A DNA stretch of 64,000 nucleotides from Burkholderiales bacterium (GTDB lineage: Bacteria; Pseudomonadota; Gammaproteobacteria; Burkholderiales; Burkholderiaceae_C): NCBI GenBank assembly GCA_947464185.1, contig CANHVY010000004.1:1-64000 (forward strand), given 5' to 3'. Below are positions 24,501 to 45,512 of this stretch, piece after piece. Both the position numbers and the translations under genes were made by a program. Each line of letters opens with the position of its first letter. Position 1 is the stretch's first letter. Under the pieces are notes generated by a model. It made no database searches, had not been told where the DNA came from, and saw only the letters and a program-made list of their open reading frames with translations.

Positions 24501-25215
24501 CGTGACCATGGCCGCGGTGCTGTACGTCTTCCGCACCCTGGTGGACGACGACATTCCGCTGAACGCCGGCTGCCTGAAGCCGCTGCACGTGATCGTCCCC
24601 GAAGGCTGCATGCTCAACCCGCGCTCGCCGGGGGCGGTGGTGGCCGGCAACGTCGAGACCTCCATGTGCGTGACCAACGCCTTGTTCGGCGCCCTGGGCC
24701 TGATGGCCGCCAGCCAGTGCACGATGAACAACTTCACCTTCGGCAACGAGCAGCACCAGTACTACGAGACGATTTCCGGCGGCACTGGCGCGGGCGTCTG
24801 GACTGGCCCCGACGGGCAGGTGACGGGCGGCTACGACGGCACTTCGGTCGTGCAGGCGCACATGACGAACTCGCGCCTGACCGACCCCGAAGTGCTGGAG
24901 TTCCGCTTCCCCGTGCGGCTGGACAGCTACGAAATCCGCCACGGCTCGGGCGGGGCCGGGCGCTGGCGCGGCGGTGACGGCGGCGTGCGGCGCGTGCGCT
25001 TCCTGGAGCCCATGACCGCCTCCATCCTCTCCAACGGCCGCCGCGTGCCGGCGTTCGGCCTGGCCGGGGGCGCCCCGGGCGCGCTGGGCATCAACCGCAT
25101 CGAGCGTGCTGACGGCCGCACGGAGGTGCTCACGCACATCGGCAGCGCGCCCATGCAGCCCGGCGACGTGTTCGTGATCGAGACGCCGGGTGGGGGAGGG
25201 TTTGGGGTGGGGTGA
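21535..25215 (+). CDS. Hydantoinase/5-oxoprolinase, fused A and B subunits
   Basis: A 1226-residue ATP-dependent hydrolase of the OPLAH type. The HyuA-like half (about 1-700) begins with [13 protein letters not shown] and contains the phosphate loops [12 protein letters not shown] near 78 and [13 protein letters not shown] near 283. The HyuB-like half (about 708-1226) contains [16 protein letters not shown] near 800 and GHHADIGG near 827. The fusion is the same as in eukaryotic 5-oxoprolinase; many bacteria encode the halves separately. The reaction is ATP-driven opening of 5-oxoproline or a hydantoin. The last 650 bases of this gene are the source of repeated fragments at 31.9, 41.9 and 45.4 kb, and an IS91 transposase remnant starts 3 bases after its stop codon. 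Confidence 0.92.
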
Positions 25216-25218
25216 GGG

Positions 25219-25453
25219 CTCTGCCCCTCGTGCGGTGCACGGCGCATGTCGCAGGCGGCGGCACATCTGGTCGACCATGTCATCCTGGGCGTGCCGGTGC
25301 ACTAGTGGGTACTGTCCCGCGCACATCCCGCTGCGCATGCTGCTGGCGATGCAGCGCGTGGTCGAGCGGCACCTGCTGGACCGCACGGGGCTCAAGCGTG
25401 AGCAAGGCCAACCCGGCACCGTCATGCAGATCCAGCGCTTCGGGTCCGCCGCT
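25219..25453 (+). pseudogene. Remnant of an IS91-family transposase (central part)
   Basis: Reading from 25219 gives LCPSCGARRMSQAAAHLVDH, which matches the zinc-ribbon end and following segment of IS91-type (Y2) transposases. A TAG stop follows at 25303. A one-base insertion then shifts the frame before IPLRMLLAMQRVVERHLLD, GLKREQG and IQRFGSAA, where similarity ends. The N-terminal part and everything after the GSAA motif, including the catalytic tyrosines, are absent. It abuts the stop codon of the oxoprolinase gene. The family was identified by recalled motif order, not by a search. Confidence 0.78.
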
Positions 25454-25594
25454 ACCAAAGCTCCGTACGTAGCCGGTCGGTCGGAGGCCGAAGCTCAGGT
25501 CTCTGCGGACAGCGACTCGACGTGGGAAGGCATTCGTCAAGCCGACAACCGACTTGCCGAGGACTTTCGGAAGTTGGCGAAGGACCTCGACATC

Positions 25595-44007: not shown

Positions 44008-44248
44008 TCGCGTATCGGTCCATGCAGATCGGCTGATGCCCTGAGTCTGGCGCAGCGCAAAGAGATTCGCATCAGCCGTTTGGTGGAACTCCCTGGGATG
44101 GAGGTGTCGCCGACCCGATCTTCGAGACCTCCATATCCGCCATCTGGTGGAGGGCTTGCCGATCACATGAACAGCGCCGAAACCCTGCCTGCGGCAAACT
44201 TTGGTTCTGGCATCCATCGCAGGTGCCACATAAGAAGTCGGGGAGAGC

Positions 44249-45388
44249 ATGAGCACTGAGGAACTTAGTCGCCTGATTGGCGTCATCTATGACTGCGCGC
44301 TGGCGCCCGAGCTTTGGGGCAAGGCGCTCGCCGAGATCTGCGCCCATTCCGACAGTGCCGCAGGCACGCTGGCCATCGTCAATCTGCAGACGGGCCAGGA
44401 GTACACATTGGTCAATCACGGCATCTCGGAACACTTCGACCAGTTGTACAAGGCCAAGTACCACTGCATGGATCTCTTCATCCATCCGCTGCTCGCGCGG
44501 GCCGTGGGTGAGCCGGCGCTTTCAGCGGACCTGGTCGATGACGAGGAACTCCTGGCCAGCCGGATCTACCGCGAGTGGGCGGCGCCACAGGGCTTTCGTG
44601 ACACCTTGATGACGATGTTCACGCGCCACCACGCCCAACTGTCCTTCATGGGGTTGACGCGCAAACTTGATCAGCGGCGCTATGACGAACGTGACCGGCA
44701 GGCCCTCAGGCTGATCACACCGCACGTGCAGCGTGCTGTGTTGATATCGGACTTTGTCGAGCACCAGGCCGTGGAACGCAGCCGCTTCGTGGAAGTGATC
44801 GATTCGATCACCACTGCCACGATCGTTGTCGATGCACAGCGACACATCCTGCATGCGAACCACGTGGCACGCGCGTTGTTGGACAAAGGCCAGATCGTGG
44901 CTTCGTCCAATGGTGCCTTGACGGTTGCTGGCGTGTCCCCGGCAAAGCTGTTGAAGTCAACCGACCGAGGTGCAGGGGAACGGCCGCTTCCCGAAACCCG
45001 ACGCGTTCGGGCGCCCCAGGCAGGGGCGGACACGATCATCGTCATCATGCCCTTGTTCGTCGCCGAAAACATGGGCTCGTCGGGGGGGCTGCATTACGCG
45101 GTGTTCATTCAGGACACCGGGCAACTCTCTCCTTTGGCCAGCGACGCCTGGACCAAGTTGTTCGAGCTGACCGGGAGCGAGCTCCGTGTGCTGCAAGGCC
45201 TGATCCAGGGTTCGACGCCTTCCGAGATCGCGGATACCTACGGCATCGCCATTTCCACCGTGAAGACACAACTCCTCAGCCTTTACCGCAAGACCGGGAC
45301 GCGGCGGCAAGCCGAACTCGTCAAGCTTGCATTGGGGTCGATACCTCCGGTCCATGCCGCACGTCCTGAGCTGACGGGCCTCGGATGA
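44249..45388 (+). CDS. LuxR-family transcriptional regulator with sensory N-terminus
   Basis: A 379-residue regulator. The last 65 residues are a LuxR-type helix-turn-helix (LTGSELRVLQGLIQGSTPSEIADTYGIAISTVKTQLLSLYRK, with family spacing). The first 300 residues are a sensory region with PAS-like character around 185-290 (IDSITTATIVVDAQRHILHANHVARALL). No autoinducer-binding or receiver motif is apparent. The target genes are unknown; the adjacent divergent small-membrane-protein unit is one candidate. Confidence 0.88.
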   Translation: MSTEELSRLIGVIYDCALAPELWGKALAEICAHSDSAAGTLAIVNLQTGQEYTLVNHGISEHFDQLYKAKYHCMDLFIHPLLARAVGEPALSADLVDDEELLASRIYREWAAPQGFRDTLMTMFTRHHAQLSFMGLTRKLDQRRYDERDRQALRLITPHVQRAVLISDFVEHQAVERSRFVEVIDSITTATIVVDAQRHILHANHVARALLDKGQIVASSNGALTVAGVSPAKLLKSTDRGAGERPLPETRRVRAPQAGADTIIVIMPLFVAENMGSSGGLHYAVFIQDTGQLSPLASDAWTKLFELTGSELRVLQGLIQGSTPSEIADTYGIAISTVKTQLLSLYRKTGTRRQAELVKLALGSIPPVHAARPELTGLG

Positions 45389-45430
45389 TTTGTCACCTTT
45401 GTCTGGAGCAGGTGAGGATGTCATTCCTGC

Positions 45431-45512
45431 CGCCGTGTGCCGGCCTTAGGCTTGGCCGGGGGTGCCCCGGGCGCGCTGGGCGTCAACCGCATCGAGTGTG
45501 CTGATGTCCGCC
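45431..45512 (+). pseudogene. Short duplicated fragment of the hydantoinase/5-oxoprolinase gene (copy D)
   Basis: About 80 bases beginning CGCCGTGTGCCGGCC match the intact gene around 25038-25118. Shared third-position differences (GTGTGCCGGCCTT, GGTGCCCCGGG, GCTGATG) make it closer to copy C than to the source gene. It starts exactly at the deletion joint seen in copy C. It is a relic with no coding potential. Confidence 0.8.

Follow-up and report, generated by a model that had tools for sequence, protein, structure and literature searches.

Genomic islands that use the 3' end of a protein gene usually show the full gene on one side and a direct-repeat 3' fragment on the other, and displacement of Rhs C-terminal ends was reportedly described by Jackson in 2009. 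Rows of displaced 3' ends are found in type VI secretion system (T6SS) and Rhs loci of Vibrio, for which homology-facilitated illegitimate recombination has been proposed, according to excerpts from PMC5361080. For the insertion sequence IS801, excerpts from PMC3189936 describe one-ended products that keep the right end intact and begin, on the left, at a target tetranucleotide (of the GAAC, GGAC, CAAG or CGAC type), and report experimental recovery of the element together with 290, 1017 or 1431 nt of the DNA lying just upstream; the same source itself attributes most IS801 fragments to reorganisation. Here we describe a stretch of 64,000 nucleotides from a Burkholderiales bacterium (assembly GCA_947464185.1, contig CANHVY010000004.1, positions 1 to 64,000; hereafter the window), in which an intact fused oxoprolinase gene is followed by three partial copies of its 3' end. 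The original prediction explained these copies by one-ended transposition of an IS91-type element that once lay behind the gene.

Partial copies of the oxoprolinase 3' end

When the oxoprolinase gene, here called A, was compared with the window by BLAST, 3'-end copies B, C and D were detected, all within 20.5 kb and in the orientation of A, giving the arrangement of a displaced 3'-end array, an intact gene followed by same-orientation 3' fragments (Table 1). B matched A at 91% over 318 columns (expectation value, E, 2.5e-127), the two parts of C at 91% (41854-42130; E 2.1e-109) and 93% (42126-42308; E 1.2e-74), and D at 89% over 83 bp (E 2.9e-25). These matches are far above chance, and they agree with the predicted positions to within a few bases and with the predicted single orientation. 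The 12 matches recorded genome-wide comprised A, B, the two parts of C, D, six pieces that match the query's transposase part and one of 58 bp (E 5e-4); no further strong tail copy was present elsewhere in the genome among the best 40 of 239 first-look candidates. Oxoprolinase is separated from a pgsA-like gene by 37.5 kb of accessory blocks, with the tails lying between the blocks.

The matches of B and C to A end at most 4 nt beyond the stop codon, and self-comparison of the window (E <= 1e-6) revealed no repeat, alongside the tails, of DNA upstream of the equivalent of 24570 or farther downstream than this 4-nt limit. B sits in an open frame (31860-32243), in the frame of the gene, and still matches Hydantoinase_B (PF02538, E 8.9e-25). 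Both C and D appear decayed. In C, a stop interrupts the frame at the equivalent of 24655 and 198 bp are missing between a pair of ACGGC repeats (at 24836 and 25034), and the left edge of D coincides with C's internal joint.

Table 1. Features of the oxoprolinase locus, in window coordinates
Feature	Position	Strand	Basis or description
A, intact fused oxoprolinase (hydantoinase A and B domains), source gene	21535-25215	+	Pfam PF05378, PF01968, PF19278, PF02538 in order
G-rich run at the end of A, fitting a G-quadruplex motif	25188-25218	+	regex scan
IS91/ISCR-type remnant, residues ~79-169, frameshifted	25217-25456	+	tblastn, element blastn, profile, NCBIfam; starts 1-4 nt past the A stop codon
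Block M1, between A and B: major facilitator superfamily (MFS) transporter, amidohydrolase, DoxX-like, LysR regulator	25597-31735
B, oxoprolinase 3'-end copy	31906-32222	+	equivalent of 24911-25219; 9-bp in-frame insertion
Short open reading frame (weak antitoxin-like matches) and Fic/Doc-family gene	32483-33104	+	~0.26 kb behind B
Blocks M2-M4, between B and C: MgtC/DUF4010; FAD oxidoreductase-like; TctC/CoA-transferase III/HMGL-like/LysR	33539-40853
IS91/ISCR-type C-terminal remnant (residues ~375-434)	40894-41088	+	tblastn, blastn, profile
C, oxoprolinase 3'-end copy	41854-42308	+	24570-24840 joined to 25034-25218
IS91/ISCR-type remnant, N-terminal part (to 42514) running into C-terminal part (42516/42531-42584)	42325-42584	+
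D, 83-bp oxoprolinase 3'-end copy	45429-45511	+	equivalent of 25037-25119; closest to C
pgsA-like CDP-alcohol phosphatidyltransferase, right flank of the inserted stretch	62766-63392	+

The reading we favour, with evenly balanced confidence, is that DNA was inserted serially at the 3' end of oxoprolinase, a position that varies across the genus, and that every insertion left a displaced tail behind. We infer the following recombination mechanism, order of events and origin of the blocks. Homology to the oxoprolinase gene or its tail would have anchored each incoming piece of DNA, whose other end would have been joined illegitimately, so that an intact gene stayed beside the new DNA and the tail of the older allele was pushed downstream; several rounds would have left displaced tails in a row, B and then C and D. 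B and C would once have been the ends of working genes, each with its own downstream DNA, and would end at the stop codon for that reason. The IS91 pieces behind A and C may be leftovers of elements that stood downstream of the gene in those alleles, with C, D and the IS91 pieces later decaying by deletion. Serial insertion would explain direct orientation, a position between blocks and one intact gene, as well as tails that reach just to the stop codon and are each followed by unrelated DNA, and a nearest copy that is still coding-like; the copy nearest A, which is B, is the least disrupted, and we count this in its favour.

To compare the copies, differences were counted between A and B (19/302), A and C (29/443) and A and D (9/83). 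When the gene of the relative G011 and other orthologues were used as reference, 25044T and 25071T were common to C and D, and 25053G was common to A and B, with a C at that site in copies C and D and in G011. The changes assigned to B were 7 synonymous to 3 non-synonymous (P 0.012-0.023 against neutrality, at kappa 1, 2 and 4), which suggests that B diverged largely as coding sequence, and those assigned to C (9 to 10; P 0.07-0.16) and to D (1 to 4) did not differ from neutrality; sites of ambiguous polarity were left out, and the counts are small. The graded decay that had been predicted holds for disruption, which rises from B with its open frame, through C with a stop and a deletion, to D with 83 bp, but does not extend to age, since B and C have diverged from A to a similar extent. 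Over 79 sites (25123-25201) A and B show no difference, yet they differ 17 times among the preceding sites; gene conversion between them over this interval was marginal (permutation P 0.049) and was not used.

Direct orientation and local clustering would also result if a segment carrying oxoprolinase had been duplicated in tandem and had then undergone deletions and unrelated insertions that left gene tails only. The evident deletion in C agrees with such a history, and the constraint on B fits a once-functional duplicate. However, no flanking DNA was repeated with the tails in the self-comparison, and the trimming of B and of C would need to have reached the same end base independently. We consider tandem duplication distinctly unlikely.

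The shared end base of B and C is the right edge of a G-rich run matching that at the end of A. Seven G-quadruplex motifs were detected on the two strands of the window, A, B and C each ending with one of these, and none was found in the 60-nt gene ends of the 11 relatives (15 tried) in which the anchor was found. It is possible that the G-rich run is the reason the gene end is used; the run and the stop codon coincide, and their effects are inseparable here. In one such scheme, a break-prone 3' end with a putative G-quadruplex is repaired by template switching, which pastes the tail elsewhere or captures DNA. This would be in keeping with the right edges of B and C, with a motif absent from the gene ends of the 11 relatives, with tail copies likewise seen in this genome only, and with the ACGGC microhomology at the deletion in C, but D stops short of the motif, and the motif cannot be separated from the stop codon. 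We regard this scheme as very improbable. In a related proposal, a metabolic enzyme gene serves as a recurrent capture point for foreign DNA; its G-rich, quadruplex-like end would break repeatedly, repair would capture blocks and leave a tail each time, and the row of tails could be read as a record of the insertions, with no need of a transposase or integrase. We regard this as quite improbable. A second G-quadruplex-like motif spans the oxoprolinase start (21524-21548, - strand).

Accessory blocks and the corresponding locus in relatives

The closest relative found, G011, matched the gene at 89% over 638 bp, and the gene together with upstream DNA at ~88% over 7.4 kb. The order in G011 is oxoprolinase, 78 bp, pcp and pgsA, with pgsA 0.7 kb downstream of oxoprolinase as compared with 37.5 kb in the window genome. 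The pcp (pyroglutamyl peptidase) DNA of G011 had no match in the window genome, which is 96% complete, among the best 40 of 534 candidates. No ortholog-level match to the genes at 25.46-62.76 kb was detected in G011 (a draft of 860 contigs, 95% complete), by direct search, among the best 40 of 480 and the best 40 of 351 candidates; oxoprolinase and short transposase pieces aside, matches to this stretch were fragments of at most 0.77 kb, and those above 120 bp stood at 65-72%, against ~88% for true orthologues. In 13 of 32 other genus genomes, pcp or pgsA lies behind oxoprolinase on the same strand, at distances from 30 bp to 13 kb, a range that marks this position as a variable spot of the genus; the remaining genomes had neither gene in the downstream stretch covered (0.05-14.6 kb).

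Copies B, C and D lie inside no recognised gene and are positioned between blocks, M1 ending 0.2 kb before B and M4 1.0 kb before C. The blocks had matches of ~67-82% scattered across other genus genomes (6 candidates scored per genome). The matches to M1 in G027 lie at two contig ends and overlap in window coordinates, and judging from this overlap M1 is probably one block in that genome; the G027 oxoprolinase is on another contig. In G014 a single stretch matched M4 (36662-40853), as was largely the case in other relatives. For the flanks of B (31736-31905 and 32223-32496), no match was listed in 41 genus genomes, with 7 candidates scored in each. The composition of the inserted stretch is not unusual, its GC of 0.62-0.72 per 2 kb comparing with 0.63-0.71 elsewhere.

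An intact gene with direct-repeat 3' fragments is also the usual appearance of site-specific genomic islands, and one or more islands could have been inserted by an integrase that uses the gene 3' end as its attachment site. Yet none of the 7 genome matches to phage-type integrases (PF00589) falls on the 118-kb contig C4 (serine recombinases were not searched for), and the tails are of different lengths and define no common core. The window likewise holds no tRNA that could act as an attachment site. Insertion of such islands appears extremely improbable.

Several observations weigh against serial insertion. The window genome is a draft of 169 contigs, and the pattern is known from this one genome; among 87 oxoprolinase loci with more than 1 kb downstream (some genomes being counted twice), a convincing tail copy was seen in none. 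Among the relatives' matches listed (6 scored per genome), M1 or another block was never seen behind oxoprolinase, as at a donor locus; the neighbours found there were pcp and pgsA, presumably the original ones. In G001, G003, G017 and G061, 12-15 kb downstream of oxoprolinase contain neither pcp nor pgsA, and because of these four genomes the ancestral order rests mainly on G011 and 12 others. To the right of pgsA, too, synteny with G011 is lost, the next G011 genes being on another contig, and a wider rearrangement is possible from this gene order. The divergence of A from B equals that from C, so age does not clearly rise with distance, and the synonymous counts are small. Against 109 orthologues, no mosaic structure was seen in the 3' end of A (G011 ranked 6, 1, 1, 2 and 1 in five segments of A), and the small size of D fits filler DNA equally with a displaced tail. 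Separately, 12 of the 87 loci gave matches at E <= 1e-3, which were 18-68 bp long, upstream or downstream and on either strand, and were judged by length to be chance.

Other features were observed in and around the blocks. The antitoxin-like open reading frame and the Fic/Doc-family gene behind B overlap by 11 bp. A 1260-aa protein (54817-58599) with 22 RTX calcium-binding repeat stretches accounts for the numerous repeats seen within the window at 54.9-57.7 kb. Elsewhere in the genome, contig C57 (9051-15476) carries a paralogous TctC/CoA-transferase/HMGL cluster with 64-69% identity to 36.8-39.8 kb of the window, ~2.2 kb from an IS91/ISCR-type transposase gene.

IS91/ISCR-type remnants and one-ended transposition

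The original prediction also placed parts of an IS91 transposase just past A and C, and this proved correct by tblastn, blastn, profile and NCBIfam matches. Judged by similarity, the pieces behind A and C, together with a piece at 40894-41088 that had not been predicted, are IS91/ISCR-type transposase remnants. The tblastn matches after A are short, covering residues 79-111 and 114-169 in two frames, and those after C cover residues 18-30 and 30-71, so that the pieces behind the two tails (25217-25456 and 42325-42514) are consecutive, non-overlapping parts of the transposase; the additional C-terminal remnant is located 0.77 kb before C. A profile of 11 elements matched four remnant pieces at E 1e-43 (25214-25455), 2.1e-35, 4.7e-16 (40911-41088) and 6.1e-7. 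The three pieces typed with NCBIfam all matched NF052416 ISCR_clade_Ia (E 1.8e-7, 3.4e-5 and 1.9e-4), two of them from the remnant behind A, at 20-30 bits and thus below the cut-off of 925. Pfam gave a single weak match on the remnants, to PF14319 (E 0.028). For reference, an intact transposase (L083) scored 485 bits with NF052416, 107.9 with PF04986 (cut-off 20.9) and 74.3 with PF14319 (cut-off 26.3). Beyond the remnant pieces, the sole further profile match below E 0.1 was a weak one on the + strand at 54312-54450, to the zinc-domain part of the element (E 8.4e-5, 11.8 bits), which blastn did not confirm.

Pieces of this element type are present in many genus genomes, and PF04986 matches, to this and other IS91-like types, occurred in 22 of the 41 genomes searched. 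In four relatives' copies (L193, L205, L208 and L209), the N- and C-terminal parts of the transposase are kept and the middle is deleted, at differing points. IS91 scraps are expected to be common, given both the frequency of PF04986 and these internal deletions.

Alignments of the relatives' elements placed the left end ~0.25 kb upstream of the first aligned codon and the right end at a core like GCGTTTGAAATTCCTATGCGC. In the window, this core had 0 matches within 3 mismatches, and at E < 1 there was no profile match past position 1652 of the 2165 positions, leaving internal transposase only. A target tetranucleotide was found within 8 bp of 0/6 edges (the left edges of the three copies and their equivalents in A), where ~2 would be expected by chance and the copy edges are known only to a few bp; this absence is informative only because the one-ended model requires the tetranucleotides. 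The tail of A meets the transposase at about residue 79 and that of C at about residue 18 or slightly before, ~60 codons apart, and since these are different internal points of the element, the two do not represent a single inherited junction. Beside B and D, element blastn and the profile detected no IS91 DNA. One-ended transposition thus failed on the right end, the tetranucleotide, a common junction and an element at every copy, and the original prediction of this cause was not borne out.

The ancestral order that it had assumed, oxoprolinase and then IS91, met with a divided result. The relative G036 has this order, with a largely complete IS91-type gene ~0.4 kb downstream of oxoprolinase, but the differing junctions of A and C do not descend from a single one. 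G036 was the one such case among 29 other genus genomes (loci L009-L037, each with 1.0-1.5 kb downstream), and none of 80 named loci, with 0-6 kb downstream (at least 1 kb in 70), had IS91 behind oxoprolinase. As a candidate for an orthologous oxoprolinase-IS91 junction in relatives, G036 stood by itself and was set aside, its element being no closer to the remnants than others. The transposase match in G036 (L073:14240-15870) has a gap between residues 183 and 275.

A broader form of this explanation is that an IS91/ISCR element behind oxoprolinase repeatedly overran its left (ter) end and re-inserted the tail nearby, the elements having since mostly been lost. The pieces directly behind A and C are on the correct, upstream or ter, side, and a third lies shortly before C; elements of this type are widespread in the genus; the order of gene and element exists in G036; IS801 carrying upstream DNA has been recovered experimentally, in the excerpts from PMC3189936; and element ends could have been removed by decay. 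Against it, the junctions differ, neither right end nor left-edge tetranucleotide was found, B and D have no IS91, and at the relatives' loci that hold the blocks (L234-L243) neither IS91 nor oxoprolinase was present in any of 10. The copies are moreover in a single orientation and confined to 20.5 kb, with no strong copy elsewhere among the candidates scored. We think repeated overrun by such an element unlikely. Serial insertion does not need IS91, whose scraps would be former neighbours of the gene. Judged by title and opening of the abstract, none of the papers listed on oxoprolinase with IS91 seemed to concern such a pattern.

Comparison with known systems

The features that one-ended transposition of IS91, IS801 and ISCR elements would share with this locus are the transposase pieces on the expected side of two tails, and it differs in the right end, the target tetranucleotide and the common junction, which were not found here. 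We suggest as a caution that transposase scraps beside duplicated gene ends are not by themselves proof of transposase-driven movement. Islands at the 3' ends of protein genes resemble the locus in that accessory DNA follows an intact gene and 3' fragments of the gene occur as direct repeats, but the contig here carries no phage-type integrase, and the tails share no short constant core for attachment.

In T6SS effector-immunity arrays and in Rhs and contact-dependent inhibition (CDI) loci, as in the window, remnants of older alleles are lined up downstream of a complete gene, and in the T6SS arrays these remnants include the shifted 3' end of the effector gene (excerpts from PMC5361080). In those cases the retained immunity gene is probably under selection and the units are effector-immunity modules, whereas here the gene encodes a metabolic enzyme, no use is evident for its tails, and transport, catabolic and regulatory genes make up most of the inserted blocks. 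If serial insertion is correct, gene tails at a fixed point would allow insertions of DNA to be counted and ordered without the signatures of mobile elements, and the displaced 3'-end pattern known from toxin loci would extend to an ordinary metabolic gene.

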